The notes under the pieces: generated by a model
Told to the model about the DNA's origin: nothing
The model's input: the letters and a program-made list of their open reading frames with translations, nothing else
Databases searched by the model: none
From: Lonicera japonica
Taxonomy: Eukaryota; Streptophyta; Magnoliopsida; Dipsacales; Caprifoliaceae
Length of the DNA stretch: 64,000 nucleotides
Direction: 5' to 3'
NCBI GenBank assembly: GCA_021464415.1
Contig: CM038465.1
Coordinates: 79,952,919-80,016,918, forward strand
Shown here: positions 1-63,428 of the stretch, piece after piece
Numbering within the stretch: the first letter of the stretch is position 1
Layout of the letters: each line of letters begins with the position of its first letter
Program-made: the position numbers and the translations under genes

Positions 1-395
1 TTACCTCATTTTACTATGACGAAGGTGATGGTATTGATATGAGCTAGCAAGAGATGTTTAATTATGGTGAATGTGATGTTCCTCGGTGAGAATGAACTCC
101 GTTTCTACCAAATCTTCGAGTGAGACTTAATAATGCAAAACTAGATAACCCAATTCCGATCACCATGCTACCGGAATCACAATCCCAATTGCAGTGTTGC
201 CAGATTTGATAGAGAACTGAACCCTATAATTTTGCTAAAAAAGCAAGTTGGCCGATCGGAAGTTGAGAGAAAGAGGGGTTGAACTAAAATTTAAGGGTTT
301 GTTTGGCAAAAAAAGTGTAACATTTTTCACTAAAAAATTGGAATTAAGGTAGGTAAAAAGAATAATTTGGTGTGTTTATTTAAGATTAGCCTATA
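1..395. other. AT-rich non-coding start of window
   Basis: No supportable gene, RNA or repeat was seen in this stretch. Confidence 0.5.
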
Positions 396-29582: not shown

Positions 29583-31133
29583 TGTGAGAATCCGCAAATG
29601 CGATCCCCGAGTCTCGTCTCCGTTCGGTTGGGCGTCTAAAACGTCGGAACAGATTCCGTCGTTCCATTTGCTGGAGCATTTTGATAATTCATATCACATG
29701 TCCTTATGTTCTATTTCTAGATGCAAAGGGGTTCATTCAAAGTCGCCAGTACGTTTTACGAGAAAACGGACAAAAAGGGTCGTGTAAGAGGAAAGGCTAT
29801 AGACAAGCCTTTCTTTACACGTTTGTCTACGAAACCAAGATTCTATAGGGTTCGGAAACTATATTACGGTTTGGGAAGGTGTTAAGCATCCATTCCTCCC
29901 TTTCGGTCTCTAGTGGTCTTTTATATGTTTATTCTATGTTGAAAAACTTGGATGCTTTTACTGACAGTCTACTACTTTCTAAGTGAAAATCCTAATTTTG
30001 GGAAAACGGGGAAAGGGATGAAAACCTCTGTGTTCCGAGATCCAATGTTTAGTTTTGAGAAATACAAATACAAGTGTCAAGAGTTTGTTTTTAGAGGGAG
30101 TTTTACCGTGTTATTTCTCAGATAACGACGATTTTTCTCGGATTTTTGATTTATTTGGAAAAAGTGTTGGATCTTGTATCGGAATTAATTCAATATGGAA
30201 TTGGAACTCTTGAGGGGAGTTCTACCAGACATATCACAATCTATGAAACAGATGGGATATACCGGATTTTTAATTCATAAGTAAGTTTTATCGGTTCGGG
30301 TTTTGAAAATAGAATTTTATCCGGATGATAATATACTTACTCTTTTGGTTTTGAAAATGGTTTTATCAGGGTCTTTTGTTTTGAAAATGGTAGACTATTT
30401 GTAACCTGACAATAAGTTTATTCAAATAAAACGTGGACAAAACAACAGAAGTAAAACAAGTACACATATATCTAATTTAAATACTAGAAGGGACTTTCTT
30501 TACCTTCCCGACGAGAATAATAATAAGAAAGAAAATATGATACAGAGGAGAGATTTTCGGCGATGATAATCTTTTCCTTCTTTAGATATTTTCGAGAATT
30601 CAATTCCAGAGACGGGACACGTCGAGTGTCGAGAATAAATTCGATAATTCTTCAGAAATAAGACGAGAATCGAGAATGCTTAATGAAAGACTAAAAAATC
30701 CGATATAAGCCAATAATTCTTCAATCCCCAAATTGCTGCCTTGAACCCTTGGGGGGTGTTGGCATATTTATACTGCTCGGGGAAGATTGTCGCACGACAC
30801 TTCTCCAAAAGGGGCATATGTCGCGCGACAATGTGATATGTCGTGCGACAAACGGCTAAAGTGATGTTTCTGACAGACTAATGTGTTAGAGAGTGGATGG
30901 TCTGGTGTCAGGAGGGATTGTCGCGCGACATAGTGGGATTGTCGCGCGACATATCAGTGATTGTCGCACGACAATGTGATATGTCGTGCGACAATCTCTC
31001 TTAAATGTAGGTTTGTTGGCCAACAAACCCTTTTGGGGTAGTTTTGGGTACTCGGGTGAGTCTCGGACCCAAAAATAGTAGTTCTCAAAGGTCGTTAGGG
31101 TTCTTGCAGGGGTCACGGATCGGGGTGTCTACA
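29583..31133 (-). repeat. 3' LTR of the gypsy element
   Basis: This 1551-bp LTR runs (plus strand) from TGTGAGAATCCGCAAATGCG to CGGGGTGTCTACA. A minus-strand TATA box lies at 30765-30772 (TATAAATA). Seven copies or near copies of TGTCGCGCGACA lie at 30788-30993, upstream of that TATA box in the element's sense. Confidence 0.93.
30788..30993 (-). promoter_or_regulatory. Palindrome cluster in the 3' LTR (7 sites)
   Basis: Sites start at 30788, 30819, 30839, 30919, 30940, 30962 and 30982. Three are exact TGTCGCGCGACA; two read TGTCGCACGACA and two TGTCGTGCGACA, that is, C-to-T type changes on one strand or the other at a CpG. Successive spacings are 31, 20, 80, 21, 22 and 20 bp. Confidence 0.75.
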
Positions 31134-31377
31134 GACACTCTCGACTCAAGCTCATTGCTTACAAGAAATTGAGGCGACTGGAAGAGACCATGATCCATGG
31201 CTTCCGCAAGGACTCTAAGGAAATGTGTGTTATGCAAAAAGTGTTCGTGAGTGCCTCCGGAGAGGGCTTGTGTTTGGTTTTGCCTCCGGAGAGGGCTTTT
31301 GTTACCTCATTGCCTCTTTCGAGGGCTTTTATTTGCTCTACTCGCCTCAGATGGGAGGACTACCATTGTTCCATTGA
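31134..31377. other. Junction next to the 3' LTR; no polypurine tract seen
   Basis: In element orientation the sequence just before the 3' LTR is GAGTCGAGAGTGTC, not a run of purines. On the plus strand a frame starting near 31142 reads ...LKLIAYKKLRRLEETMIHGF and runs into the tandem repeat. It may be a captured coding fragment, but I recognise no family. Confidence 0.35.
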
Positions 31378-31700
31378 GCCTCTCTGGGAGGGCTTCGCCT
31401 TAGGTGGGAAGACTACCATTGCTACACTGTGCCTCTCTGGGAGGGCTTCGCCTCTGGTGGGAGGACTACCATTGCTCCACTGTGCCTCTCTGGGAGGGCT
31501 TCGCCTCAGGTGGGAGGATTATCCTTGCTCCACTGTGCCTCTCTGGGAGGGCTTCGCCTCAGGTGGTAGGACTACCATTGCTACACTGTGCCTCTCTGGG
31601 AGGGCTTCGCTCTTCTTGCCTCAGGTGGGAGGACTACCATCGCTACATTGTGCCTCTCTGGGAGAGCTTTTGATCTGTAAGAAGAAAGAAAATTGCCTCT
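31378..31700. repeat. 53-bp tandem repeat, about six units
   Basis: Units beginning GCCTCTCTGGGAGGGCTTCG start at 31378, 31431, 31484, 31537, 31590 and 31652 (the last spacing is 62 because of a 9-bp insertion). Variants such as 'gcctccggagagggctt' extend it on both sides (31254-31735). It lies between the antisense genes and the 3' LTR, where Tat-lineage elements often grow tandem arrays. Confidence 0.8.
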
Positions 31701-31739
31701 GGGAGGGCTTTCATGAGTAATTTTGCCTCTAACGAGGGC

Positions 31740-32579
31740 TTGTGTTGTACTCTGGTGAATTTGTTTGTTGTCTCTCTTAGACTGCTAGAGTGAGAGAGAG
31801 AAATTTTTTTGAGGGTGAAAAGAGCTCATCGAGGTCTAATCTGTTATCTAGATGTCCGTTTTCCTGTATTCTTTCTGAACTTTACTCTCATGTTTTCCTC
31901 GAGTGAGGATACTTCTCTCAGAAGGCAATTTTCGGAATTTCTCTTGCTCTCCGCAGAGTGATGTTTCGAGGATTTCCAAACCATCTCATATGTATCGTGC
32001 TGAAAAGAAAATTTGTTTGAAAGTTCAATCTCTGATCTCTGTTCTTATTTTTCTCTTTTGGTGGGCCCACATCGTATTCTGTTTTTCGATGCCCTTATTT
32101 CTCCCTCTTTTTGGGAAAGACTTTTCCTGGCCTTCTCTGTTTTTGACCAGGAGTCTTTTTATCACTTTCTTGCGATCAGGAGCCTTACTCACCCAAAACG
32201 AAGCCCTGAGCTGGTTTTGGCCTAGCTGTCACTTTTGGTGTGGCTCTCCCTGTCACTCTGGATTTCTGTTTCTCTCGCTCGCTTTGGGCGCTCATGCGGG
32301 TTCTTCCTATTTTCTACTCTTTCAATTTTTTCTATTCCCGTCTCATCTTGATATTTTGTTTTTTCTCATTGATGGTCTCGGTCTTTCTAGGAGATCAGAG
32401 ACTACTTTAACTATTTGTATTTTGTTCTCGCTTTTTCGGAGAGATGATTTTGGAAGTCCTCCTGGAATTTTCATCCTGGGTGTGCGGTTTTTAGCAATTT
32501 TTTCGAAAACCGATTCTCTGGAGTACCCCCTGCAAGAGATAAAATGAGACAAGGGTCAAAAAATCAGAGGAGGGGGGAT
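31740..32579. other. Non-coding spacer in the gypsy element, pyrimidine-rich
   Basis: Open frames here (for example 31903-32547 plus) are rich in Phe, Ser and Leu because of the T/C-rich composition, and match no family I know. It leads into the antisense gene 1 promoter. Confidence 0.4.
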
Positions 32580-32663
32580 TATCGCGCGACACTTCGGTGT
32601 ATGGCTCTTTGTCGCGCGACAATGTGGCCATTTGTCGCGCGACAATCCTCTTCACTATATAAG
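32580..32663 (+). promoter_or_regulatory. Promoter of antisense gene 1: three palindromes and a TATA box
   Basis: TATCGCGCGACA (32580-32591, one change) is followed by two exact TGTCGCGCGACA sites (32610-32621 and 32633-32644), then a TATA box TATATAAG at 32656-32663. The spacings are 30 and 23 bp. The predicted leader to the ATG at 32801 is CT-rich. Confidence 0.7.
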
Positions 32664-32800
32664 TCCCTTGCTGAGCTCATTCCACCTCATTCTCTCCCTT
32701 CTCTTTCTCTTTCTAGCCCTCCTTCTCTCTTCTCCCAAGCGCAGAAGCCCTGCCGCTTTTCTGACTTTTTTGATTTTTCTCACATATTCCATATACACGG

Positions 32801-35800
32801 ATGGACCATGCACATCCTGATAGACTGGAGGGTGACCAGGAGGAGGTCACTTTTACTGACGCTCAGGGCGTTCTTCGCTGTAGCCCTCACCACGACGACT
32901 GGGCGAACCTCGATTGGTACGGTGAGGATGGGGTAGACCGCGGTCGGGCGGTGGTCTACCGAGACGTTACCCGGGCTGCTCCGGTCCCGGACGTTTCGTG
33001 GCTCTTAATGGAGCCTGTTTCTCACGAGATTCGTTGTCGATCTCTGGTATGTCTTCTTTTTTATTCGTTCATTTATTTCTGTCGTTTCCTGCATGTTATT
33101 TAAACAAATGTTAATATGCATGTCTGCCTAGAAATAACATCCGATTTTAGTGAACACATACTTTTATTTGTGATACCCCTTTATGCTTTAAAAAATTACA
33201 TAATTTACCCCTATAACCCTATATCTCTCATAATTACACCAAAGTACCCTCAGGTTTTGGAAAATTACATAATTTACCCTTATAACCCTATATATCTCAT
33301 AATTACACCAAAGTACCCTCAGGTTTGGAAAATTACATAATTTACCCTTATAACCCAATATCTCTCATAATTACACCAAAGTACCCTCAGGTTTGGAAAA
33401 TTACATAATTTACCCTTATAACCCAATATCTCTCATAATTACACCAAAGTACCCTCAGGTTTGGAAAATTACATAATTTACCCTTATAACCCTATATCTC
33501 TCATAATTACACCAAAGTACCCTCAGGTTTGGAAAATTACATAATTTACCCTTATAATCCTATATCTCTCATAATTACACCAAAGTACCCTAAGGTTTTA
33601 GAAAATTTCATAATTTACCCTTATAACCCTATATCTCTCATAATTACACCAAAGTACCCTCAGGTTTGGAAAATTACATAATTTACCCTTATAACCTTAT
33701 ATCTCTCATAATTACACCAAAGTACCCTCAGGTTTTGGAAAATTACATAATTTACCCCTATAACCCTATATCTCTCATAATTACACCAAAGTACCCTCAA
33801 ATTTTGGAAAATTACATAATTTACCCCTATAACCCCATATCTCTCATAATTACACCAAAGTCCCCTTAGGTTTGGAAAATTACATAATTTACCCCTATAA
33901 CCCTATATCTCTCATAATTACACCAAAGTACCCTCAGGTTTGGAAAATTACATAATTTACCCTTATAACCCTATATCTCATAATTACACCAAAGTACCCT
34001 CATAATCCTGTACTCGTTCTTTTTGTCTGTAGTGGGTTGGCCGTGGTTGGGGTTGTCCCAACACCATTTTCTTAGAGTGACGACAGGCACCGGCTCCTGT
34101 CCAGGAGTTGCTCTTTGCGACTCCTTTTGGTTCTTTGTTCGATGCCCTCCCGGAGCGGGTGTCTAGAGCAACTGTGTTGGTGTCGGCTCTAGCCTGTCAC
34201 TGGTGGGACACCAGTCATACTTTTCACTGGAGCTGGGGGGAGATAACGATGACCCCCCTCGACTTATTTGCTTTGATCGAGATTCCTTCAGGGGGTCCCT
34301 TTACAGATCGATGTCCCCTTGCGTCTGACAGCAGAGGGCATTGTTGGTGCACTAGGATGGTTCCCGAAGCGACGGAGTTCCAGTGATACGATTCCTCGGG
34401 CTGTCTTGGTTACGCGGCTAGCCACAGAGAGAGCTTGATTAGTTGCTTCAGGAGTGCCGATGACCCGTCAGGAAGCGCGCCAGTATGCCCGCGTCCTTCT
34501 TTTACTGACGCTCCATGATCTGTTTGAGGCCCGTGGGGGGGACACGGCCCATCTTTGGTGGATGCCTTATCTCCGGGATTTCAGCATCATGTTCGACTAT
34601 GATTGGGGCGGTTTTATTCTTGCCGTCCTCTATGATGCTATGGACCAGGTTTCTCGCCACTTAGCCCTGAACCTTAAGGGCTTTTCTTTGCTGTGGGAGG
34701 TATATACTTTTGTTCCCTTATCTTTGTTCCAGTCCTTTACTTTTTATTTGTTGATTGTTGCTGATATTCTTTATGTTTCTTCTTCAGAGTTGGTTTGTGG
34801 CATATACTCGTTTGGGTCGCGCCCAGGTAGATCTCCTCGTTGAGAACGAGGATCAGTTCCCTTCCTCCGTTAATTCATTGCGGGAAACTGCAGGGCTCCT
34901 TATGTATACCGGACTCGGGAGACCGGAGCTGCTGCCGTCCATGACCTGCTGGAGGAGCAGGTAAATATCTTAGTATTCTTTCTTTTTAATAAATAAATTA
35001 TAAATACAATATAAATAACTGAAATAAATTTTTGTTCTTTTTTGTAGATTGAGTGGGCCCCCTGGGGTGATCTGGGTCTCCATTTCGGATATGGCCGTGC
35101 TCTGACCGCCTAGACGACCAGGCGGCTGATTAGGGATGAGTACGGCATTCTTTTCTACTTGGGCGAGAGAGTTATTCGCCAGCATACACCGGCCCAGTGG
35201 CCCCGAGTTCCACTATTTCCACCGGTTCTGATGAGGCGGATGGGTGAGATTAACCCGGTGAAGGTGCAGGCCTTGGTTGACGGGCTTGGCTTTCAGACGT
35301 TCACTGAGGAGGGAGACTATGTTGCTTTCGTCGCTTATTATTTGATGAGGGAGCCGAAGGGGACTCGGGGACGGGTCTTTTATGAGAGATATCGGGCGTT
35401 GAGAGGCGATCCCCATTATATACGAGGACAGACCCACCTAGCTAGGATGGTTCCGGGTCACTTGCCACCTGTCCCCAATCAGAGGGACAATATTTTGAAT
35501 TCCGAGGATAAGGACCCCGAGGGGGAGAGGGACATTCCTGCTGCTGCCGAGGGTGGTGATAGATCAGGGGGTGAGGGAGGTGATACGACGGTAGCTCCGG
35601 AGCAGCCGCCTCAGACGACACCCATGGAGGAGGAGCGCGCTGAGGGATTTGAGTTTCCTACCGGCCCTTCTGTGTCTCCGGAGGTCCTTTTCGATGCTGC
35701 CGAGGCTGCTGAGGGAAGAGCAGGATTTTTCGAGCCGTCCTGGGAGCCTGCGGACCTTGGGGCAGATTATGAGCAGTTTGGGCGGACCCCTCCTGCTGCG

Positions 35801-36611
35801 GCGACTACTCCTTCTAGTGGGGTCCCGCCTTTGAGAGCGATAGCTATGGTGGATCCTCCAGGTGTCTGTACCTACGCTACACTGACCCCTCTTTCGTCGA
35901 CTGCTATGGGCCCTCCAGCCCGATCATCAGGTCTCGGCGGCTTATCTTCTCGCCCTCTTTTGTTCCCTATTCGCGAGGAGGGATGGTCCACTTCCGCTGA
36001 TGTTCCGGCGGGGTCGTCCATTCCTTGGGTAGATCTACCCCTACTTCCCAGAGATATCTCTTATGTCGGCGCCGATTTACGTCGATACACTGTCCCGGAG
36101 TATCCTCTTTTTGAGGATGTTTTTGACTACTTGGGTGGTCGCCCTGGTGATGAGGTACTTACTTTAACTTCTCTTGATACTTTTATATCTATATTTATTT
36201 ATCTTGACTGTGCTGATTCTCTTATCTTATGTTTTTTATAGCGGGTGAGTGTACATGTGGCGAATCTGCGGGCTTGGCACGCCCAGTATCTCTACAGCTG
36301 GAACCTGCTCCAGTACGTCGGTCGAGACCCTCCAGCATACATGCGTGACTATCATAGGGCTATTGACATTTTTTTACGGCCGGACGGCCCCCTAACTTCT
36401 TCTCATGCTCGGACAGAGTCTCGGAGGAGTAGTAGTCGGACCTCCAGGCGTTCTCGGTCCTCGGATGATCCGTCCTACGGCTCCTATCCAGTCGACGGGG
36501 CCCTTCCAGACGACAGTTCCTCCTACTCAAGGCGTCTCAATAGTTGACCTTACTCCCGAGGAGGGCTCGGGTGATAGTGGGAGAGTGTCAAAACGCGCTC
36601 GAATAGATTAG
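32801..36611 (+). pseudogene. Antisense gene 1: plant mobile domain (PMD)-like, five exons
   Basis: Proposed exons are 32801-33046, 34033-34699, 34788-34960, 35048-36154 and 36242-36547 (or to 36611 in another frame), all with GT-AG junctions (for example CTG|GTATGT, TGTAG|TGG, GAG|GTATAT). Exon 2 carries the PMD-like core ALACHWWDTSHTFHWSWGEI then MTPLDLFALIEIP, similar to the 'THTFHLPWGEMT-TL-D' signature of PMD (aminotransferase-like) proteins, the family of Arabidopsis MAIN and MAIL1. Later parts read RQEARQYARVLLLLTLHDLF and WAPWGDLGLHFGYGRAL. The tail is acidic and Ser-rich, with a basic end (VSKRARID) that could be a nuclear signal. Breaks: in-frame stops at 34078-34080, 34436-34438 and 35111-35113, a frameshift near 34386, and possibly more in exons 3 and 5. 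It lies antisense to gag-pol, between pol and the 3' LTR. Antisense extra ORFs are known in Tat-lineage elements; PMD capture by transposons is also known. The role here is unknown. Confidence 0.72.
33188..34005. repeat. 68-bp minisatellite, about 12 units, in intron 1 of antisense gene 1
   Basis: Units such as 'aaaattacataatttaccc' + 'ttataaccctatatctctca' + 'taattacaccaaagtaccctc' + 'aggtttgg' repeat with a 68-bp period (starts near 33261, 33329, 33397, 33465, 33533 and onward). Units differ by only a few bases, implying recent expansion or homogenisation. The array fills nearly the whole 986-bp intron (33047-34032). Confidence 0.9.
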
Positions 36612-36945
36612 CTTTTTCTTTTCTGCACTTTTGTTAGTTTGGAACAGATATGTAGTTTTTATTTTTATAGACTTGTTTTTAGACAGAAATTTAGTTTTGA
36701 AAACTGTTTTTTCATTGGATTTATGAAAATCTTTATTCGTGTCTGATGATATACTATTATTCTCTGTTTGTGGAAGATACATATATATATGAGTCAGTGT
36801 TTTTAGGAGTCATACCTTGTAGCGTAGTGACACATAGGATTCCTGCGAAAAAACAAAGTGAGAACAAGAAAGCATCCAGAAGTGATTCTTTTGACAAGAA
36901 TGACTCTTGTGTGTAAAGAAAACAAAAATAGGGTAACCCTAAATA
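36612..36945. other. Spacer between the antisense genes
   Basis: This T-rich 3' flank of gene 1 is followed by an undistinguished spacer. No gene was seen. Confidence 0.4.
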
Positions 36946-37027
36946 GGATTGTCGCGCGACAATCCCTCCTGGGTATGGGTTTGTCGCGCGAAAAACAGGC
37001 ACATGACCCTCTTTTTTACTATAAATA
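36946..37027 (+). promoter_or_regulatory. Promoter of antisense gene 2: two palindromes and a TATA box
   Basis: The first site is a perfect 20-bp palindrome, GGATTGTCGCGCGACAATCC (36946-36965). The second is TGTCGCGCGAAA (36982-36993), 32 bp further on. A TATA box, TATAAATA, follows at 37020-37027, and an ATG at 37067 suits a leader of about 15 bases. Confidence 0.68.
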
Positions 37028-37066
37028 CACCCATCTTCCTTCTTTCATCCCCACACCTTCAAAAAA

Positions 37067-38312
37067 ATGTCTTCTTATCGCATAAATCTGATTTCTCTTA
37101 TGTTAAAGCCCGAGATGCTCTGATATCTTCTGAAAATGGCTTGAATTTTAGTGCATTTAGTCCTTTAGCGGGTTGGTGCCATCGTCCTGTATATATTTCT
37201 TTTTTGTTAGGCGCTTTGTATTTCTGGAGCCCTGTGGATCATCTCTTCCGTTTTGGGCTTAATGAGCTTTGTCCGACCTATGAGGAGTTTTTCTGGCTAT
37301 CACGTTCTGACGTTCGTCTCCCGATGACAATTTTCATAAAAGAAATCGGTCCCCGAGACATGCTGATTGCTCTGTTAGCCATTTCCCAGGCGGCCTGTGA
37401 TGGTTTTATTACCGACGGGCTCCTTGACCTCCATAAAATGGTGAGGTTTTTTCATCATTATGAAGAGAGAGTTTCTTATAGTGTGGGGCGTACTGCGGCG
37501 GCCTTGATCTATCTTGTTTCTGATATGTTACTGGTGACGGGTTCTTCCCGTGTTGATCCGACTATTCTGAGTTTGATCTACCATACTAGAAATGGGGAGT
37601 CCATAGTGCCCATTGTTCTTGCCGAGACTCTGAATAGTCTTGACGATATTCAAAGGGGGGCTTCGCCCTTCTTTAGGGGGAGTTCGCACTTGCTATACAT
37701 GTGGTTGTTGGAGCGTTTCTGATCAGTGGGTTTCAACGGGGTTCGGCTCGATAATCCGACGCATTTCTTCCATCGTCCTCTCTTTGGTGCTTTGACCATG
37801 TCTTCCTCTGATTGGACAGTGTGGTTTTCGGAGAATTTTCGGGCTATCCGGTGGAAGCTGAGGGCGATGGTGCTTAGTACAGGGGGTCAGAACTACGTTC
37901 GGCTCCGCGGGCTCTGGTTTACCTCCTTTTATCTCCCAGGACGTCTTTTTCGTCAGTTCAACGTTCCTCAAGACATTCCCCTTGGTCTGAACAACTTCTT
38001 TTCTCTTCTGAGTCCAAATTTGTGACCCCGCATGTCTCTTTATCGGTAGAGAAGATGTGGCGTGCCCGACTAACTCGTCAGTTCAACTATGCTCGCTTTG
38101 GTATTACCAGGCCTCTCCGGGCTGACATTATTCGCTCTTGCTGGCAATCTCTGGAAGGAAAGCTAATTGATGACCCCTTTTAAATGTAGTGGTTCCGATT
38201 CATGGATGCCGGGGCTACTGATGATAACATTGTCTTTGCGTATCAGATCCTGGACGAGGCTCATATTGAATTGGCCACTGAGGACCCGGTGTGGCCAACC
38301 CATAGGGATTAG
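37067..38312 (+). pseudogene. Antisense gene 2: DUF7745-like protein, decayed
   Basis: The main frame is 37082-38025 (SDFSYVKARDALISSENGL...). It includes FWSPVDHLFRFGLNELCPTY followed by EEFFWLS, resembling 'FWDP...F.FG..EL.PT.EEY', and IVLAETLNSLDDI...FFRGSSHLLYMWLLERF, resembling 'P.ILAET..SL......F.GC.QLL..W'. These are features I associate with plant proteins annotated DUF7745. The ATG at 37067 is one frame away from the body, so a frameshift has hit codons 4-5. Further breaks: a TGA at 37720-37722, a frameshift near 38017 into ...VEKMWRARLTRQFNYARFG, stops at 38181 and 38187, then a tail WFRFMDAGATDD...PVWPTHRD ending at 38312. A poly(A) signal AATAAA follows at 38398-38403, leaving 135 bp to the convergent end of pol. 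The molecular role is unknown. Confidence 0.62.
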
Positions 38313-38397
38313 TTTCTTCTGTATGCTATATCTCCTTTGTAACTTTCGGTGTTCTGAACCACCCTTTAATAATTATACGAAGGGACTGTTTATGGAA

Positions 38398-38403
38398 AAT
38401 AAA
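38398..38403 (+). terminator. Poly(A) signal of antisense gene 2
   Basis: An exact AATAAA lies 85 bp after the stop and before the convergent pol 3' end. Confidence 0.5.
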
Positions 38404-38538
38404 TTTCTTTACAAAGTTTAAACCGGGCCTGAAACCACTTCTCAGGTTGCCTACGTTCCCCCTTTTTTGATTTTTCAAAAACACAATTTGAGTTGGGGCT
38501 CAGGTTTACGTAGTTCTTATCTATACATTTTATGCCTA

Positions 38539-39905
38539 TTAATAATACTTCTTCAGTCGGTCTATGTTGACTGGTGAATGCAGTAACTGTCCGTCTAAGT
38601 CAGCGAGTATAGCGGCACCCCCTGTATCAATCTCTTTGACGATATATGGCCCTGTCCACTTCTGCCCGAACTTATCCCTTGGGTCTCTGGCTGGCTCTCG
38701 AATTTCTTTCAATACGATGTCGTTCTCATTAATACCCCGAGTCTTCACTTTCTGGTTAAATGCTCGAGCAATTCTCTTCTGATACCCTTGGTGGTGGTAT
38801 ACGGCTTTCAATCTCTTTCCCATCCAGTAGGGCTAGCTCGTTATAACGTGCCTGGACCCACTCCAGTTCATTGACTTATTTTTTTAGCATTACTCTGAAA
38901 GAGGGGACCTCTAACTCAACAGGGAGGACGGCTTCCATCCCGTATGTAAGAAAAAACGGGGTTGCCCCGGTGGAGACCCTCTCGGTGGTGCGGTATCCCC
39001 ACAATGCATATGGTAATTTCTTTGGCCAGTCCCGGCAGGTGTCGGTCATTTTGCTTAGGATATTTTTCAGATTCTTGTTGGCGGCCTCAACTGCCCCATT
39101 GGTTTATGGTCTATATGGCGACGATCTGTGTCGGGTAATACCATATTCCTCCATGACGGAATTAGCCTCTCCTTTAAAGTGAGTGCCGTTGTCCGAGATG
39201 ATCTCGTGTGGGACCCCATACCGACAGATGATATTTCGTCTGATGAATCGGGCAACTTTTCTGGCGTCAAGGGTTTGGAAAGACTCGACTTCCACCCATT
39301 TGGTAAAGTAGTCAATGGCCACTAGTATGAATTCATGGCCGTTGCTGGCTTTGGGTGAAATCTTTCCGATGATGTCAATTCCCCAAGTCGCGAAAGGCCA
39401 GGGAGCAGTCATGTTGTACAGCTCTTTTGGTGGAAGTTTATGAGATTTAGCATAGATTTGGCACTTGTGGCAACGGTGTACGTGATTAACGCAGTCGTTC
39501 TGCATGGTAGACCAGTAATAACCTTGTTTGATGATTTTGCAAGCAAGTGTGTGGCCGCTCATGTGAGGTCCACAATCGCCCCCATGTATCTGATCCATCA
39601 CTTTGACAGACTCTTCTTCAGTGAGACATTGGAGATGGGTCCCGTCGTAGTTCCTCTTATATAGCCTGCCGGCATAAAGTATGAACCCTGATGCTAATCT
39701 CCTGAGTGTGACCCGCGTTCTCTTATCTGTTTGCTCGGGATATAGGTGATTTTTCAACATGTTCCAGATATCATAAAACCAAGTGGTTGAGTCCCCTTCC
39801 TCTTCATTCTCTACCTCAAGGGCCATGCAGTGTGCTGGTCCAGATTTCTTTTGCACTGTAAGAGTTATTTCTTCCATCCCCTCCGGGATATCGATCATAG
39901 ATGCC
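38539..39905 (-). pseudogene. Gypsy integrase
   Basis: In element order there is an HHCC zinc-binding region (IHGGDCGPHMSGH, then CHKCQ, about 39580-39460), a catalytic core with the first Asp in GIDIIGKI and the second in IISDNGTHF (about 39380-39190), then a stop at about 39104-39106. The sequence carries on in frame beyond the stop (TNGAVEAANKNL, holding the Glu) and ends with a basic C-terminus (38823-38539: KRLKAVYHHQGYQKRIA...KWTGPYIVKEI). A second stop lies near 38880. The domains are collinear and otherwise well kept. Confidence 0.9.
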
Positions 39906-40941
39906 AGAGTTGCCAGTACGTCAGCAAAACTGTTCTGTGACCTGGGGACATAGTAAAACTTCGCATGCTCAAACCTTCCTCCGACATCCTCCAGTCGGGC
40001 GAGGTAAGGGACTAATATCTCATCTCTGATCTTCCATTCCTTCAGAACTTGGTGGACCACTAGTGCTGAATCTCCGTATACCTGTATTCTTTTTATACCC
40101 CTTTGGAATGCGATCTCTAACCTGATTATGCAGGCTTTATATTGGGCCATGTTGTTGGTGCAGAAGAAATCTAGACGATACGATACCGGGGAGTGAGTTT
40201 GGTCTGGAGAGACTAACAGGATGCCTATCCCGTTTTGTTTCGGTTGGCAGCCCCGCTAAAGTATAATTTCCAGTCTTCATCAATCTCGACATTCATGATA
40301 GTTTTATCTGGAAATTCGGCTTCTTCTAGCATGTCCCTCAATATCGGATTGTGGACCAGGTAATCAGCTATAATCTTGCCTTTGATTGCCTTCTGGGTCA
40401 TGTAGGTGATGTCGAATTCGGAGAGCAAAAATAACCATTTTGCCATACGGTTCGAGATAGCTGGTTTGTCGAAGAGGTATTTCAACGGATCAATTCGTGA
40501 TGCCAGGATGACCAGAAAAACTAGCATGTAGTGCCATAATTTCTGTGTTACCCAGACGAGAGCGGTGCACGATTTTTCCAATGGCGTGTAGTTTATCTCG
40601 AATGGGGACAGTTTCTTGCTAATGTAATAGATGGCCTGTTCTTTTCGTGTATCGGTCAGATGTTGGGCTAGCATGGCTCCTGCAGCTGAATCAATGACGG
40701 CCAGGTATAGAATTAGTGGTAGTCCGGTTTGTGGCGGGGCTAACACTGAGGGTTTGGAGAGGTAGTTTTTTATTCTGTCAAAAGCTTCCTGGTACTGATC
40801 GTCCCATTCTCCTGGTGATGACTTCCTCAGGAGTTTGAAGATGGGTTCGCAAGTTTGAGTGAGCTGAGAGATGAACCTGCTGATGTACTGCAGATTACCC
40901 AAAAATCTCCGGACTTCTTTCTTGGTACGAGGCTCAGGCAT
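39905..40941 (-). pseudogene. Gypsy RNase H (two domains)
   Basis: 40941-40225 contains the RT connection and the first RNase H (LILYLAVIDSAAGAMLAQ, YYISKKLSPFEINYTPLE). A second RNase H begins WKLYFSGAANRNKTG, is cut by a stop near 40225, and resumes at 40150 (QYKACIIRLEIAF, VYGDSALVVHQV, NSFADVLATLAS). Two RNase H domains mark the Tat lineage. In the second domain the first catalytic Asp (normally in YFDGA) is Ser and the Glu-bearing segment reads AQYKA, so it would be inactive. Confidence 0.82.
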
Positions 40942-40953
40942 GTCTCGGATAGC

Positions 40954-41667
40954 TCAAATTTTGGTAGGATCTACCTCGATTCCCTTCTTACTGACGACAT
41001 AGCACATGAGTTTTCCCTTGGTTACCCCGAACACACATTTCTGTGGATTGAGTCTCATCTGGTACTGGCGGAGGTGGTCAAAGAAGGCTCGCAAGGCTAG
41101 TACATGGCCTTCCCTCTCTTTTGACTTGATTATCATGTCGTTTACATACACCTCTACTTCTTTGTGAATCATGTCGTGGAAGATAGCTGTGGCTGCCCTC
41201 TTATATGTTGCTCCGGCATTCTTCAGCCCGAACGGCATAACGGTGTAGCAATATGTTCCTCACGGTGTGATGAACGCTGTTTTTTCTTGGTAATTCGGGT
41301 GCATTTTGATCTGGTTATACCCGGCAAAACCGTCCACTAATGATTTTAAGGCATGGTTAGCGGTATTATCTACTATTAGATCAATGTTGGGTAATGGGAA
41401 ATCGTCTTTTGGGCAAACTTTATTGAGATCTCGGTAATTTACACACATGCGGACCTTTTCATTTGCCTTTGGAACGGGCACAATATTGGCTAACCATGAA
41501 GGGTACTCGATCACCCGCAAGAACCCTACACTCAGTTGTTTCATCACTTCATCTTTTACTTTCAGGGACCATTCTGGCGTAAGTTTTTTCAACTTTTGCT
41601 TGACGGGCCTAAATTTCGGCTTGGTGTGTATCTCATGCATGACTATCTGGCTGTTCAACCCTGGCAT
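40954..41667 (-). pseudogene. Gypsy reverse transcriptase
   Basis: 41667-41260 carries the fingers/palm start (VKQKLKKLTPEWSLKVKDEV, SWLANIVPVPKANEKVRMCV, YRDLNKVCPKDDFPLPNIDL). A stop at about 41257-41259 interrupts just before MPFGLKNAGATYKRA (41238-40954). The catalytic motif reads YVNDM instead of YVDDM, losing one metal-binding Asp. Further reading frame breaks occur near 40948. Confidence 0.92.
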
Positions 41668-41829
41668 ATCTGCATAAGACTAGGCGAAGACGTCTACGTA
41701 CTCTTTCAGAGTTTGTGTGAATTCCTCTCTTTCTGTCTCACTTAGACTTACCCCAATGCGGACCTCTTTTCTTTCCTCTTTTGTCCCGAGGTTAATCACT
41801 AAAGTGTCTCCCTCCTCGCTCTGTATACG

Positions 41830-42378
41830 TTACTCCTCTCGTTCAGGGTGTTCGTTTAATCTTTCCAATTTCATATAAGCAATTACAGAATTAAAATTAA
41901 CAGGATAACGCAAAACAGAGTCTTCTCCATTGATAATGGTGTTTACAGGTACAAGTTTAAAAAGTAAATCTAGGAGTGACTCTTCTCTAGCCTTTTCCTC
42001 ACTCTTACCTCTCACCCTTACAATTTCACTCTTTCCCCTCTTTCTTGGTAATGCGGATCAGTGTGTATCAAGTGTATAGGGTCGTCTCTTGGCTCGTCAT
42101 CCCCCATAGCCATGATGTCGAAGAGATCTCCGATCATTTTTTCTTCTTCATCTTTCTCGTCTTCATTTTCTTTCTTCGACTCAATTGTCAACTTGGTAGA
42201 GAAGCTGTGTATGACGTTTTCCTTAATATAAAAGTCCTCTTCATAGAAGATTTCCCATCCTGGAAGGTTCTCTCCGTCGCTGTTTCTCCAAGGCTTTTGA
42301 AAGCCGCAAAAGGGGAAGTCATCTTCTTCTTTGACGAAAAACCCATTCAGAGAGTTAAAACTCGGATACTGATGCCCT
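41830..42378 (-). pseudogene. Gypsy protease-RT linker, degraded
   Basis: Short open pieces such as 42015-41830 (LLFKLVPVNTIINGEDSVLR) lie in the region linking protease to RT. There are many stops and no recognisable domain. Confidence 0.45.
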
Positions 42379-42683
42379 CAGCTTTTTCTCTCTTGGTCGT
42401 TTTCTTCGGTGTGTTGGTACCCCAACCCTTCTTTTTCGAGCCACGTCATTGGTTCTAGGGCTTGGAGTAACCCTGGCTGCCCCATTCCTAGACTGGCTCT
42501 AGGTAAATATTTCATCATTCTCAGCATATTTGTGATCTTGGTGCTGAGACCGGGAATATTGTCAGGGGGTAGATACTCAATTCTCTGGGTGGTGAGAGCT
42601 TGTACTTGAGGCTCGTAAGAAAAGCCTCCCAACTGTATGCTTTGGCTCCCGATGCCCAAAACAGGTAATTTCAGATATGCCAA
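42378..42683 (-). pseudogene. Gypsy post-protease segment with G-patch-like motif
   Basis: It reads MMKYLPRASLGMGQPGLLQA...LEKEGLGYQ. Paired 'M-Y-P-LG-GQG' and 'GLGY-PTE' motifs like this follow the protease in many plant Tat/gypsy polyproteins and resemble a degenerate G-patch. It begins with 'YLKLPVLGIGSQSIQLGGF', which follows the protease. Confidence 0.6.
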
Positions 42684-42743
42684 GGTCCTCTCAGGATCTC
42701 CTTGGATGGTGATTATATTCCCTTCGAACGATATCTTGATCTT

Positions 42744-43040
42744 CTAGTGTAAAGAGGAGGGGAGTGCTCCTATGTCGTGTAGCCATGCTCTTTCCAACAG
42801 GAGGTTAAAACTGGAGGGAATGTTTATGATTTGAAAGTCGGCCGAAAAGTTTCCAGGACCGACCATGAGATCTAGCTTTAGGGAACCCTGAACGGCCCTT
42901 CTGGTGTTGTCATAGGCTTTAACGGTCACAGCTGACGGGGAAAGTTCTGAGTCTAAGATACCCAGACATCTAGCGGTCTTCAAGGGGCAGACGTTTAGGG
43001 AACCCAGAACGGCCCTTCTGGTGTTGTCATAGGACTTGTG
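42744..43040 (-). pseudogene. Gypsy aspartic protease, active site missing
   Basis: The body is recognisable: LNVCPLKTARCLGILDSEL, AYDNTRRAVQGSLKLDLMVG, FSADFQIINIPSSFNLLLER. The expected Asp-Thr/Ser-Gly motif should lie just before 'SLNVCP' (about 43000-43035). There the sequence is instead a near copy of the downstream 'YDNTRRAV-GSL' segment (40 bp, one mismatch with 42876-42915). The LLLGR motif reads LLLER. Confidence 0.72.
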
Positions 43041-43137
43041 GCAGGATTTTCCCTCGGGTCCGGACAGTGATATGGAGGGTTAGGCTGTGTTTTCTTTCAA
43101 TTGGAGATAAGTCTTCATCTGAAAATGACAGACTTCT

Positions 43138-43692
43138 TTAGACTGTAAGTGACCCGATCATGTTTGGCAGTTGCTCTGGTGTGAAATCTGGTGATATGAC
43201 GACCTCGTCTAGAAGTTTGATGAAGGCGGTCCTGTGAGGTTTGGAGGCAACCAAGAGGCCCCAAATGGTGATGTGTGCCTGAGTTTTCTTCAACTGTTCA
43301 AGTACTCGATCTTCTCCTATTTTCTTAGGAGGTGGTGATTTCTCGGCATCCATTGGGGGTGGCTGGTATACCCTCCCTGAACGGGTAATTTGTTGTATCC
43401 AAAGTGATGTTGGGTCTGATCCTTATGGAGTTTTTGCTGACTCTGGCTCTGCCGACCAACTGAAAGTCCCGGGAGAGGTTTCTGTCATACAGATTATCTC
43501 CTTAGGGGGGCCTCGGGGTTTCCACGGCTGTTTTTTCTTCTCCTGGGTCCACCTTATCCCAGATTTTTTGGGATTGGTTTTGATTGTAAGTGGCTGTGAG
43601 ATCTCCTGATTTGCCTTTCCTAAACCCTTCCCGGGTAGGAAGTTCATTTTAGCCATCCATTGGTCGATTATTAGATTGAGGCCTGGCGCCAC
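43138..43692 (-). pseudogene. Gypsy gag-protease region
   Basis: 43692-43423 reads LIIDQWMAKMNFLPGKGLGK...NPKKSGIRW, a G-patch-like motif. 43353-43138 reads VLEQLKKTQAHITIWGLLVA...ALIKLLDEV-type sequence (here AFIKLLDEVVISPDFTPEQL), the segment that usually precedes the protease. The frames are separated by stops. Confidence 0.65.
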
Positions 43693-43767
43693 TTGAGCCT
43701 TTGCTGACAGTACAACGGGTGCTTTGCAGGCTGGGCCATCTCGAATGAGTCCTAAGGGATCAAAGCC

Positions 43768-44016
43768 TTATTCGTCAGTGGTCAAGGCGTTAATTCCCGC
43801 AGGTGGAGCGTGGTTAGGAAGGGGATTGTTGGTAACATTGGGCCCGCCGGGTGCGGGGATGGTTCCGGCTTCAATGAGGTCTTGGATACGATGGCGAAGA
43901 GCCAAGCAGCGTTTCGTGTCATGGCCCACTGCTTGATGGTATGCACAGTTCTCATTCATTCTCCATGTGCTGAGAATAGGGTTTGGTGGGGGGCGCGGGT
44001 TCAGTGGAGTGATCAT
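43768..44016 (-). pseudogene. Gypsy gag C-terminus, zinc-knuckle-like
   Basis: CAYHQAVGHDTKRCLALRHR has the Cys/His pattern of the short zinc knuckle found in Tat gag proteins. The frame differs from the main gag frame, so there is a frameshift between 44121 and 44016. Confidence 0.7.
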
Positions 44017-44120
44017 TCGGCCTTTTGGAGTAGTTCCAGGCTTTTGACCAGGGTAGTGGAGAGGGTGCAGAAGTTTCTCCTTCTCTTGGCCTCGGTGCTC
44101 TAAGGGTCTCCTTGTGCGGG

Positions 44121-45422
44121 CTAACTCATCTGAGGGGCTAGTTGTGACTGTTGAAAAGGATTTTGTTGGTAGAGGTATGAGCTTAGTTGGTTTACGGCTG
44201 GAGTGGCTGTCTTCCTCCCGGTGTACGAGGCTTTCTTGGTATCAGTCTCTGCTTTCTTGGCTAATTCTTCCTCTACTTGCAACCCCATACTTAACAGGGC
44301 TCTGAAGTGTGGGAATACATGTTTTCTCATGCAACTCAGTACAGCTGGAGTGAAATTCTTCTGTATGATCTCCAGCTGTTCTTCTTCATCGGGTCGTTTG
44401 GACATTTGGGAGACCATCTCTCTCCAGCGTGTGACGAAATCGCTGAAGCTTTCTTTCTCGCCTTGTTTGGCCATTTTCAGGTGTTTACTGGTAATTTCCA
44501 AATCCTCGTTGGACCCGTATTTGGTCATGAACTCCTTGACGACATCTCCCCAAGTTTTTGTGTGGTGTCTCTCTAAATCGAAAAACCATCTCAGGGCGGC
44601 CCCCGTGAGAGTCATATGAAAGGTCTGAGCCAGCTCCGGCTCTCCACAGTCGGACACTTGCATGGATCTGATGTAGGATTGAAGATGGGTTTTGGGGGGT
44701 GTGGTCCCTGTAAATTTGGTGATGGAAGGGAGTTTGAATTCCTGGGGCAATATTGCTTCTGGGTAGAGGGAAAAGGCATTCATATCTGTAATCTCGTCTG
44801 CCCTTTTTATCAGAGAAATCCCTCTTTGCAGAACCTTCATCTGCTCTTTCAGTTTCTTCATTTCTTCGCTCTCTCTTGACACCTGTTCCCGAGCTATAAC
44901 CGATTCTGCATACACTGCCCGAAGTCGGTTGATGTCTGTGTACTCATTAGGAGGGGCTACCGGGGCCGGTGGTGGGATAGGTCTGGCGGGGACTTGTGGC
45001 CATGGCTGGTATTGGGGGTCAGGGCCTTGCTGAGGTTGTGGCCAAATGATGGGTGGCTCTTGTTGTTGGTAAGTGGGGCCTGAATCCGAGGCCCATTGAT
45101 TTTGGTTCTTGGGATCGGTCTGAACGGGACCGGGTGGGATGGGACTTATTTGGGGTAGATTGGTTCTTTGAACTGGGGGAAGCACTTGTGAAGACTGCCC
45201 TTGATCTCAATTCGGTGGTAGCCGTTCAAATCCCGGTGGTGCAGCCCGTCCGGCTGACAACTCTTCTACTCGAACTCTGGTATTCTGTTGCTCGTTCGTG
45301 AGACTTGCTAGATTCATGCTGACGGTCATCAGTAAACGATGCATCTCGGCTAGAGTTGGCTGCGGTGCAGACGCCTCGCCTAGGCTTTGATCTGTCTCTT
45401 GATTCTCGTGTCCATCGACCAT
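44121..45422 (-). pseudogene. Gypsy gag (capsid) protein
   Basis: It starts at an ATG at 45422 (MVDGHENQETDQ), hits one in-frame TGA at 45207-45209, then stays open from 45206 to a stop at 44121-44123. After a Pro/Gln-rich stretch it has a coiled-coil segment (SEEMKKLKEQMKVLQRGISL). A retrotransposon gag domain follows at about residues 210-310 of the joined frame (YIRSMQVSDCGEPELAQTFH, LTGAALRWFFDLERHHTKTW, FVTRWREMVSQM). It is the best-kept frame of the element. Confidence 0.88.
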
Positions 45423-46156
45423 TTCAGGTGTGCATGGTCTTACTAGTCTTTCGGTATGATCTCGACCGGCCCAACCTTTTAGTCTGTCGTCGTATTACGG
45501 CTGTAGAGGAAATCACGTGGCGAAGATGAATGAAGACTACGATGCGACTCGATTTTTGTCAAAAGAACCACTAAAAATCGCCAAGAAAAGACTCGGGTTT
45601 CAAAAAGGTGTTATAAAGTAAGCCGCAGGGTGGTACATCCCTTACGGCTGTTTAACAAGTGTTTTAGCCGACTCGATCTTATATGCAGCGCAGGTATACA
45701 AACGGTTTAAGGCTTCAGACTCCTTTCTATTTGGCAAGACCTTGCGATATACCCCAGGGCCGGGTACGTGCAAGAGCCTTTTGATATACTTCCCGGGTAC
45801 GTGAGTGTTCTCGTCACTCGATATACCTCGGGGGCGTACTTGGCCAAGGAAAGTGGAAGTAAATGCTTTCGGTTTATGTTGGCCCAAGCAAGCCAACTCC
45901 CTACTCACTTATAATACTTCCGAGGGTTTGGGGTAAATTCACACTCGTAGAACCAATGCATGATTTGTGAAAGTGCGTGTAAAGTTCGAAAGGTTGATTT
46001 CACGGATATCATTATCTTTATTAGGCATTTTTGAAAAACTCCCATTTTTAGAAAAAAGTTTCTTCTCAATCAATTAACATCAGTAGGGAAAGAGGTAAAA
46101 GCAAGTATTCAACAGATAAACAAAAGTCCACATATAAGAGTCTAGTTTTCTAACAG
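45423..46156 (-). other. Gypsy 5' leader
   Basis: This stretch between the primer site and gag has a short direct repeat 'cgggtacgtg' (about 45762-45807). A minus-strand frame at 45908-45642 is open but unrecognised. Confidence 0.5.
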
Positions 46157-46174
46157 TCCCCAGCAGAGTCGCCA
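46157..46174 (-). other. Gypsy primer binding site
   Basis: On the minus strand TGGCGACTCTGCTGGGGA starts one base inside the 5' LTR. It begins with TGG (complement of tRNA CCA) and resembles sites reported for Ogre/Tat elements, where tRNA-Arg is the proposed primer; the tRNA identity is from memory and unverified. Confidence 0.75.
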
Positions 46175-46175
46175 C

Positions 46176-47727
46176 TGTGAGAATCCGCAAATGCGACCCC
46201 CGGGTCTCGTCCCCGTTCGGTTGGGCGTCTGAAACGTCGGAACGGATTCCGTCGTTCTATTTGCTGGAGTATTTTGATAATTCATATTACATGCCTCTAT
46301 GTTCTATTTCTAGATGCAAAGGGGTTCATTCAGAGTCGCCAGTACGTTTTATGAGAAAGCGGACAAAAAGGGTCGTGTAAGAGGAAAGGCTATAGACAAG
46401 CCTTTCTTTACACGTTTGTCTACGAAACTAGGATTCTATAGGGTTCGGAAACTATATTACGGTTTGGGAAGGTGTTAAGCACCCATTCCGCCCTTTCGGT
46501 CTCTAGTGGTCTTTTATATGTTTATTCTATGTTGAAAAACTTGGATGCTTTTACTGACAGTCTACTACTTTCTAAGCGAAAACCCTAATTTTGGGAAAAT
46601 GGGGAAAGGAATGAAAACCTCTGTGTTCCGAGATCCAATGTTTAGTTTTGAGAAATACAAATACAAGTGTCAAGAGTTTGTTTTTAGAGGGAGTTTTACC
46701 GTGTTATTTCTCAGATAACGACGATTTTTCTCGGATTTTTGATTTATTTGGAAAAAGTGTTGGATCTTGTATCAGAATTAATTCAATATGGAATTGGAAC
46801 TCTTGAGGGGAGTTTTACCAGACATATCGCAATCTATGAAACAGATGGGATATACCGGGTTTTTAATTCCTAAGTAAGTTTTATCGGTCTGGGTTTTGAA
46901 AATAGAATTTTATCCGGATGATAATATACTTACTCTTTTGGTTTTGAAAATTGTTTTATCAAGGTCTTTTGTTTTGAAAACGGTAGACTATTTGTAACCT
47001 GACAATAAGTTTATTCAAATAAAACGTAAACAAAACAACAGAAATAAAACAAGTACACATATATCTAATTTAAATACTAGAAGGGACTTTCTTTACCTTC
47101 CCGACGAGAATAATAATAAGAAAGAAAATATGATACGGCGGAGAGATTTCCAGCGATAATAATCTTTTCTTTCTTTAGATATTTTTGAGAATTCGATTCT
47201 AAAAACGGGACACGTTGAGTGTCGAGAATAGATTCGATAATTCTTCAGAAAGAAAATAAGAATCGAGAATGCTTAATGAAAGACTAGAAAATCCGATATA
47301 AGCCAATAATTCTTCAATCCCCAAATTGCTGCCTTGAACCCTTGGGGGGTGTTGGCCAATTTATACTGCTCGGGAAAGATTGTCGCGCGACACTTCTCCA
47401 AAAAGGGCATATGTCACGCGACAATGTGATATGTCGTGCGACAAACGGCTGAAGTGATGTTTCTGATAGACTGATGTGTCAGAGAGTGGATGGTTTGGTG
47501 TCAGGAGGGATTGTCGCGCGACATAGTGGGATTGTCGCGCGACATATCAGTGATTGTCGCGCAACAATGTGATATGTCGTGCGACAATCTCTCTTAAATG
47601 TAGGTTTGTTGGCTAACAAACCCTTTCGGGGTAGTTTCGGGTACTCGGTTGGGTCCCTGGACCCAAAAATAGTAGTTCTCGAAGGTCGTTAAGGTTTTTA
47701 CGGGAGTCACGGATCGGGGTGTCTACA
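46176..47727 (-). repeat. 5' LTR of the gypsy element
   Basis: This 1552-bp LTR has the same ends as the 3' LTR. A minus-strand TATA box (TATAAAT) lies at 47359-47365. Its distal side (47381-47586) carries seven TGTCGCGCGACA-type palindromes. Confidence 0.93.
47381..47586 (-). promoter_or_regulatory. Palindrome cluster in the 5' LTR (7 sites)
   Basis: Sites start at 47381, 47412, 47432, 47512, 47533, 47555 and 47575; three are exact (47381, 47512 and 47533). The nearest site ends-to-TATA gap is 15 bp. The spacing pattern (31, 20, 80, 21, 22, 20) is identical to that of the 3' LTR. Confidence 0.78.
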
Positions 47728-61836: not shown

Positions 61837-63428
61837 CACACATATCTAGCTAGTGAAAGAATTTTGAATGCATGGGTGGCTCTATTCTATTGCCAGAGCA
61901 AAGCAGATACGACCGTTGTCAGAGCAATAATATTGTACAATTGTGAAAGTATATTGTATAATTTTCATAGCAGTAGTACTACATATGATACTCTTGCAAA
62001 TTAAAGCAGCAATTGCTCTGGCAATAGGCCGGGCGTAATTACTTTGAATATATATATATATATATACACATATGTTGATAAATGAATTGGGTGCAGGGGT
62101 GGGTTCATTTCCAGGGAAGAGATCAATGTCATTTACAGGTGTAAATGATGTTTATCATGAAGAAACAAATAACAACGGGGAAGAAGAATTATCAGAGGAC
62201 GAAGGGTCACAAGCAGGGGAAAAGAAGAGAAGGCTTAACATGGAACAAGTGAGGACACTTGAGAAGAACTTTGAGTTGGGGAACAAGCTTGAGCCTGAGA
62301 GGAAAATGCAGCTTGCTAGGGCCCTTGGCCTACAACCCAGGCAGATTGCTATTTGGTTCCAAAACAGGAGAGCTAGATGGAAGACAAAACAATTGGAAAA
62401 AGACTATGATGTCCTCAAGAGACAATTTGATGCCATCAAAGCTGAAAATGAAGCACTCCATTCTCACAACCAAAAACTTCAATCCCAGGTATATACATAT
62501 ACATGTTCCTTCATTCTTTAATTTCTTTCTTTTATTACCTTCAAATGCTAGATTACAAGTTCAAATTCAACATTGTATTAATTCAGTATATGATGATATT
62601 CTTCTGTTTTCAATGCTTAATTTTAATTCCCCCAGAAAATATCAAAGCTAGCTTTCCTTCAGTATTAATTAGAATTCAGAGATACAAAACATATTACATG
62701 CATATATATATATGTATCTTATCAGTTATCACCATCAACTTAATTTCTTTTACTTGTATCGTTCAATTGACTTTGCGACCTGTTTGGATCTTCCTGGGAC
62801 AATTTGAATGATCTTATTAATTCTAGCTCGTCGCTGCAATTTAATACTACTGAAACCTTGATCACTTGTAAACATCGATCAGTTTTAAAAATCTTGAAAT
62901 TTGGAATGGTTCCAATTTATGATGACGAGAAATTTACAATAATTTGCAAATGGGGACCATTGATATTCAATGGACAAAGAATGTTTTATTACTTGTCCAT
63001 CAATTAATGTAATGTTAGTTTGATGTTGATTTGTGTTAATTTGAATATTGGGGGTGCAGATAACGGCACTGAAAAACAGGGAGCCAACAGAGTCGACATT
63101 CAACCTCAACGTAAAAGAAACAGAGGGGTCTAGCAGTAATAGAAGTGAAAACAGCTCAGATATAAAGCTTGATATCTCAATGACACCGCCACCAATTGAC
63201 AGCCCTTCTCTCTCAACCCATCACCACCACCACCAAACCACCACCACCAGCAGACCCTTCTTTCCACCCTCAACTAGGCCTACTACTGGTGCTGCCGTGG
63301 CTCATCTCTTCCACAATTCTTCAAGAACTGATCAAACTGTTAAAGAAGAGAGCCTCTGCAACATGTTCTGTGGCATCGACGATCAAACAGCGTTTTGGCC
63401 ATGGTTGGACCAACCACAATTCAACTGA
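61685..63428 (+). CDS. HB13-like: HD-Zip class I transcription factor, ATHB13-like (291 aa, three exons)
   Basis: The exons are 61685-61799, 62097-62488 and 63060-63428, with GT-AG introns (CATG|GTACC...TGCAG|GGGTG; CCCAG|GTATA...TGCAG|ATAAC). The N-terminus [20 protein letters not shown] is characteristic of the ATHB13/23/3/20 clade. The homeodomain is about residues 81-137, with the helix-3 signature [18 protein letters not shown] leucine zipper follows (Leu138, Leu145, Ile152, Leu159, Leu166, Leu173). The C-terminus has a His/Thr/Pro-rich stretch and ends [11 protein letters not shown], the clade's aromatic tail. Members are nuclear, bind the pseudopalindrome CAATNATTG as dimers, and act in cotyledon/leaf development, sugar response and cold or drought tolerance. 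The length is close to the family norm of about 290 residues. All frames are open, so the gene is presumably functional. Confidence 0.97.
61887..62027. mobile_element. Small inverted-repeat element in intron 1 of the HD-Zip gene
   Basis: CTATTGCCAGAGCAA at the left pairs with TTGCTCTGGCAATAG at the right, exactly over 15 bp. Internal 'gacaacgg' and 'gtactactgc' words do not extend the pairing. It occupies half of the 297-bp intron, which also starts with a CT tract (61804-61831). Confidence 0.6.

Follow-up and report, generated by a model that had tools for sequence, protein, structure and literature searches.

A palindrome at the LTR and two antisense-gene promoters of a Tat-lineage retrotransposon of Lonicera japonica and its counterpart in a second family: candidate operators of a common factor

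The stretch of DNA analysed here (64,000 nucleotides, called the window below) is part of contig CM038465.1 of the Lonicera japonica assembly GCA_021464415.1, positions 79,952,919 to 80,016,918, and contains at 29583-47727 a retrotransposon with two long terminal repeats (LTRs). A 5-bp direct repeat, GATTG, stands on either side of it as target-site duplication (TSD). The gag-pol region is read from the minus strand, and two antisense genes on the plus strand, one PMD-like (gene 1) and one DUF7745-like (gene 2), sit between pol and the left LTR. Clusters of a 12-letter palindrome lie just upstream of TATA boxes at the LTRs and at the promoters of both antisense genes. Related copies keep the palindrome at these positions, and in a second family of elements another palindrome occupies all three.

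The element and its palindrome clusters

The element, its antisense genes and its promoter regions are arranged as follows (positions in the window).

29583..47727, minus strand: LTR retrotransposon, gag-pol on the minus strand with interrupted frames, TSD GATTG
29583..31133, minus strand: left LTR (3' LTR of gag-pol), 5.0% different from the right LTR
30766..30772, minus strand: TATA box of the left LTR, gap 15 bp
30788..30993, no strand: seven palindromes, U3 of the left LTR
32580..32644, no strand: three palindromes upstream of the PMD-like gene, starts 32580, 32610, 32633
32656..32662, plus strand: TATA box of the PMD-like gene, gap 11 bp
32801..36611, plus strand: antisense gene 1, PMD-like, apparently intron-containing, limits set by eye
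36950..36993, no strand: two palindromes upstream of gene 2, starts 36950, 36982
37020..37026, plus strand: TATA box of gene 2, gap 26 bp
37067..38082, plus strand: antisense gene 2, DUF7745-like, 3' end approximate
46176..47727, minus strand: right LTR (5' LTR of gag-pol)
47359..47365, minus strand: TATA box of the LTR promoter (right LTR), 15 bp from the first palindrome
47381..47586, no strand: seven palindromes, U3 of the right LTR, starts 47381, 47412, 47432, 47512, 47533, 47555, 47575

At up to two mismatches, 19 sites were found in the 64 kb against 0.33 expected (100 shuffles, largest count 2), in a 7+7+3+2 layout. The initial annotation had placed seven sites in each LTR, three before the PMD-like gene and two before the DUF7745-like gene, with no other copy in the window, and the sites do lie in this layout. 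Its gaps of 15, 11 and 26 bp to the TATA boxes were likewise recovered, the distances to an outward TATAWAW box being 15, 15, 11 and 26 bp. For random intervals, the chance of having an outward box of this kind within 30 bp is 3.0% inside the element and 13.1% across the whole AT-rich window. The description of all sites as a single palindrome was correct as to the motif and too simple as to its letters: nine sites are exact and ten carry one mismatch, so that about half are imperfect palindromes, the centre is mostly pyrimidine-purine (YR) rather than strictly CG, and the two LTR sets differ at 4 of 84 positions. The 12 palindrome columns are nearly invariant, and conservation drops quickly in the flanks. 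Eight 8-mers, all within or overlapping the palindrome, are common to the three 300-bp regions that precede the TATA boxes, whereas 5,000 random triples from the internal region of the element gave a maximum of six, and none in 4,707 cases.

All four differences between the LTR site sets are CpG transitions, as germ-line methylation of the sites would predict. Protection of the sites after insertion was looked for in the comparison of the two LTRs and was not seen. When the LTR and PMD modules are aligned, with the sites as anchors, differences occur in 3 of 36 columns within sites and in 16 of 39 within spacers, and the spacer letters that the two modules share suggest that they are probably of common origin. 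The spacings in the window (20-23 and 30-32 bp) fit two or three helical turns (phase-0 p of 0.0006 in a naive calculation, 0.008 for five spacings); helical phasing was set aside in view of the second family, in which the spacing is mostly 19-20 bp.

By its LTRs, TSD and domain content the element is assigned to the Tat lineage; its two antisense genes are of the PMD/DUF7745 type. The 5-bp TSD together with the LTRs corresponds to the structure of Ty3/gypsy Tat elements, and a second RNase H beside gag and the reverse transcriptase (RT)-RNase H-integrase unit corresponds to the Tat (Ogre-like) domain set; dual RNase H marks this lineage in the available text of PMC9289625. The extra PMD open reading frame (ORF) also agrees with a Tat/Ogre-like element, although PF10536 was matched in gene 1 with E values of 6e-6 and 8e-5 on two pieces, each under the gathering score. 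With two rates assumed, the 78 differences in 1551 sites between the LTRs translate into about 2-4 million years. The remaining parts of the element are listed below.

44124..45206, minus strand: gag (Retrotrans_gag, E 4.8e-11, Pfam)
39107..41679, minus strand: pol, with RT, RNase H, second RNase H (RVT_3) and integrase core, in several frames; RVT_1 just under the Pfam cut-off
46157..46174, minus strand: stretch resembling a primer-binding site (PBS), TGGCGACTCTGCTGGGGA, read directly and adjoining the right LTR

The C-terminal part of gene 1 is 60-82% identical to five Lonicera macranthoides proteins (67-82% for P0008-P0010). Gene 2 itself had no confident Pfam match. Its relatives P0001-P0007 were found, of which P0002 is 43% identical to the gene 2 of the window over 81% of the query; P0002 and P0005 match DUF7745 with E values of 1.7e-4 and 1.7e-3, under the cut-off, and PMD weakly as well. 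The predicted structure of a gene-2 relative is mostly helical, with low confidence (predicted local distance difference test, pLDDT, 62.5). At 37067-37160 the start codon of gene 2 is out of frame with the remainder of the gene in the window copy, and the relative P0001 has a matching N-terminus. Sequence searches of PDB and Rfam gave no match (0 in each), viral contigs yielded no relatives, and the LTR reading frame used as a protein query gave no candidate. Searches with palindrome pairs in bacterial and viral collections (8, 0 and 9 stretches) and with the PBS string (1) returned short palindrome-like DNA matches only, with no likeness to the proteins of the element. The 12-mer string was matched in the literature, in the text available, only in work on a chicken protein.

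Outside the element, ORFs of a class I HD-Zip homeobox gene (homeodomain and leucine zipper recognised by eye) lie at 62048-63425, so that the window also holds a host gene.

Two families with different palindromes

The genome searched comprises 886 Mb in 967 contigs and contains 29,561 exact copies of the palindrome, against one copy of the letter-reversed control. The sample found through the palindrome consists of eleven stretches, the first places listed, all on contig C1. Each of the eleven contains an LTR related to that of the window (68-90% identity, matched pieces above 100 bp). All 13 LTR promoters, the two of the window included, carry 4-9 sites at up to two mismatches, and the TATA box lies 15 bp away in 12 of them and 16 bp away in the thirteenth; three sites were present in all four PMD promoters of these loci, and two sites at up to two mismatches in all three gene-2 promoters. 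As they were found via the palindrome, these copies show arrangement and not frequency.

A search with gene 2 scored 147 of 4472 candidates, and thirty loci were cut out, one being the window itself. In the other 29, gene 2 is 85-88% identical to that of the window at the DNA level, and both promoter sites are kept at up to three mismatches (28 of 29 at up to two, the remaining copy having its second site at three). In all 29 the sites are 32 bp apart, at approximately 117-121 and 85-89 bp upstream of the start, and TATAAATA precedes the start by 47-50 bp; two of the 29 promoters have a third site 32 bp further upstream. Two further copies, reached with the promoter-free query P0005, carry two and three sites (2/2). 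The number of sites therefore differs by copy: 4-9 in the LTR, 15 in one LTR, and sometimes three at gene 2. The LTR with 15 sites belongs to this family (family 1) and adjoins a family-2 element (L096:367-2126), so that the array can reach twice the number found in the window.

The second family was recovered with P0002, by a search in which 150 of 3310 candidates were scored; these are 70-73% identical to P0002, and the upstream DNA of twenty was read. The family-1 palindrome was absent from all twenty gene-2 promoters at up to three mismatches. Instead, a different palindrome, AACCGYRCGGTT, was found in 20 of 20, with 2-4 copies each at up to two mismatches (64 sites against 0.4 expected from single-letter shuffles). 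It lies 17 bp from the TATA box in 14 promoters, 16 bp in three, and 32 and 36 bp in one each, one promoter having no box match; adjacent sites are 19-20 bp apart in 41 of 44 spacings.

In the two family-2 copies for which all three promoters were covered, the whole set carries the other palindrome: seven sites at the LTR, four at the PMD promoter and four at the gene-2 promoter in L095, and five, four and four, respectively, in L096. The motif thus differs between the families as a set. Conversely, no family-2 site occurs in the window at up to one mismatch (two at two mismatches, both outside the element), and among the stretches L034-L074 the family-2 motif was found at up to two mismatches only in L058 (one) and L065 (two). 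The initial annotation had proposed to examine whether related elements keep the palindrome at the three promoters, and had regarded its lack at one or more of them as refutation. The family-1 copies examined keep it; family 2 lacks it and in the literal sense refutes the claim, yet what is seen is a replacement at all three places and no loss.

The operators can be written TGTCG-YR-CGACA in family 1 and AACCG-YR-CGGTT in family 2, or, from symmetric counts, G-WT-TGTCG-YR-CGACA-AW-C (159 sites) and G-CC-ARCCG-YR-CGGYT-GG-C (79 sites). The frame G-N5-CG-YR-CG-N5-C is common to both and the outer letters differ; G at -2 has a frequency of 0.73 in family 1 and 0.63 in family 2, the mirror C being common too. 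Such a frame looks like the mark of related proteins with changed specificity, although two motifs are few and CG-rich frames can coincide by chance. At the protein level the families are 69% identical in RT-RNase H and 67% in RNase H-integrase, against 44-60% in PMD pieces and 40-47% in gene-2 pieces, the accessory proteins being more diverged than RT, RNase H and integrase.

Sites in which the right half is that of family 1 (CGTGCGACA) also occur in the family-2 LTR, three in L095 (2417-2613) and two in L096; those of L095 are perhaps relics of a common ancestral operator. In the search results, at least 24 rows share a score of 475.1 bits (family 1) and 26 rows one of 385.1 bits (family 2), a pattern that could reflect recent bursts, in both families, of copies that are almost identical.

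Candidate readers of the palindromes

From their sequence and placement, the palindromes are very probably shared operators of one factor. The initial annotation had proposed one factor, of the host or of the element, for the three promoters; the retention of the motif at all three in related copies and its difference as a set in family 2 agree with one factor, which may be of the host or of the element. The concerted difference at three promoters is most simply explained by a reader coded by the element, operator and protein changing as a pair. We judge such a reader likelier than any single host factor, and the case for element coding as evenly balanced overall. The explanation as a whole, in which family-specific operators of one dimeric factor would run gag-pol together with both antisense genes and element coding is slightly favoured, is the one we prefer by a modest degree.

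A weaker though still substantial possibility is that a host transcription factor binds the sites, each family having recruited a host factor of its own and distributed the corresponding site over three promoters, so that gag-pol and the antisense genes are expressed in the same cells. Known plant LTR enhancers mostly rely on host factors, and a BZR-type core (CGTGYG) occurs in six LTR sites with a CA or TG centre. However, under this explanation three promoters must have switched in concert, and the CG-YR-CG frame common to the families calls for a further explanation. Compared as consensus strings, the auxin response elements TGTCGG and TGTCTC and the CAMTA site VCGCGB match none of the 19 palindromes, and the E2F site TTTSSCGC matches one; CAMTA and E2F were rejected as candidates accordingly. 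The initial annotation had taken the half-site TGTC as an auxin response factor (ARF) core and hence a host factor as a serious alternative. The half-site is TGTCGC without spacer, in place of the TGTCGG pairs at IR7/IR8 expected for ARF, and ARF was rejected; a host factor in general, including one beyond the strings compared here, stays a rival. ARF site preferences are treated in PMC10690724, where the available text also names TGTCGC as an element tested in reporters.

A mobile repeat module (minisatellite) that has multiplied inside the element and has no regulatory role is an improbable explanation of the clusters. LTR cluster B is indeed a 21-bp tandem array, it agrees with the gene-2 module, in opposite orientation, at 22 of 22 letters, and spacer letters are common to the LTR and PMD modules. 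On the other hand, sites are retained while spacers differ, the clusters adjoin outward TATA boxes, and the three positions are occupied by a different motif in family 2. Tandem repeats without any site also occur in the element, in two places: a 53-bp array of six copies adjoining the left LTR (31342-31669), and a 68-bp array of about 12 copies (33192-34002) in what is presumed to be the first intron of gene 1. Least probable of all is a role in RNA, as hairpins or pairing loops for dimerisation or packaging: the sites are self-complementary and would be present in a full-length sense transcript, but they are tied to TATA boxes of both strands and single mismatches are common (10 of 19), although C-to-T changes still permit a G-U pair.

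Several points weigh against operators read by a factor of the element. To our knowledge, neither PMD nor DUF7745 is a demonstrated DNA-binding domain. The family-1 LTR and PMD copies were located via the palindrome itself, some of the LTRs being pairs from one element, and about 31 residues of the gene-2 query were translations of promoter sequence, so that site-bearing copies may have been favoured. Majority-letter agreement over 30 promoters is 0.98 and 0.96 at the sites, 0.94-0.95 in nearby DNA and 0.86 farther upstream; within family 1 the palindromes thus stand out only mildly, though they are rich in mutable CpG. After insertion the sites have decayed like the remainder of the LTR (4/84 against 74/1467 differences). 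Assignment of the family-2 LTR relies on a TATA box on the minus strand and on two short matches to the LTR of the window. No more than two families were seen: a third, sought with P0005 (141 of 3163 candidates scored), was not found, many rows being places already matched by the gene-2 search, and both upstream stretches examined carried the family-1 motif. The single E2F match and the family-2 half-site CGGTTG, which we take to resemble a MYB core, also speak for a host factor.

A possible element-encoded switch

If the reader is coded by the element, one homodimeric DNA-binding protein would bind the palindromes just upstream of the TATA boxes at the LTR and the two antisense promoters, and gag-pol, the PMD-like gene and the DUF7745-like gene would be switched together. 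Every family would have its own operator at all three places, and the reader would be the PMD-like or the DUF7745-like protein, acting in trans on copies of its own family as an activator or anti-silencer. The sequences show the sites, their positions, their retention in the related copies and the concerted difference between two families; protein binding, dimerisation, activation and element coding are inferred. It is tempting to speculate, with somewhat less than even confidence, that this amounts to a self-contained switch, in which an antisense-encoded palindrome reader turns on the LTR promoter and the two antisense promoters, or relieves their silencing, and the families split by a lock-and-key change of the protein together with the operator at all three promoters, the CG-YR-CG frame being kept. 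We know of no self-contained lock-and-key switch in plant LTR retrotransposons of this class.

A parallel to VANC, the anti-silencing protein of VANDAL elements, had been drawn in the initial annotation. VANDAL is a DNA transposon of the Mutator-like (MULE) type, while the present element is an LTR retrotransposon and not a MULE coding for VANC. The likeness is one of pattern: family-specific short motifs of varying number, in two families here and at three promoters, as such a parallel would predict. In the available text of PMC5735166 and PMC10398659, VANDAL elements of Arabidopsis have family-specific short motifs repeated in noncoding regions, their number varying by tandem duplication, and the targets of VANC21 and VANC6 hold different motifs. 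Those motifs are arrayed in one orientation and also occur in introns, in contrast to the palindromes in TATA-proximal clusters described here. VANDAL elements likewise carry tandem repeats in introns (in the text available of PMC10398659 or PMC5735166), as in the 68-bp array of the PMD-like gene, which has no palindrome inside.

Foamy virus Tas is an element-encoded protein that serves the LTR and an internal promoter (PMC4929722 and PMC8670036, as far as their text is available). Here the internal promoters are antisense and drive PMD/DUF7745-like genes, and the likeness consists in the common sites alone. Retand elements have antisense genes between pol and the 3' LTR, and a regulatory role has been proposed for their TRP28 proteins, with further analyses called for (excerpts of PMC11963269). 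PMD was reported in 57% of Ogre elements (excerpts of PMC6317226). The excerpts of these two papers make no mention of a common promoter motif or of family-specific operators. The host PMD proteins MAIN and MAIL1 are required for expression of genes with a common promoter motif, direct binding of the motif being left open in the available text (PMC7156037, PMC9899485). An exact match to CATGCAGTTT, the DOWN site described for MORC1, is absent from the 64-kb window.

For the function of the antisense genes in giant plant retrotransposons, two families that differ in the operator at these three promoters offer a direct test system, by the pairing of protein and operator. If the reader is element-encoded, a DNA-binding protein specific to one family would have thousands of sites in a plant genome, which would bear on retrotransposon bursts, on silencing and on host genes near LTRs.

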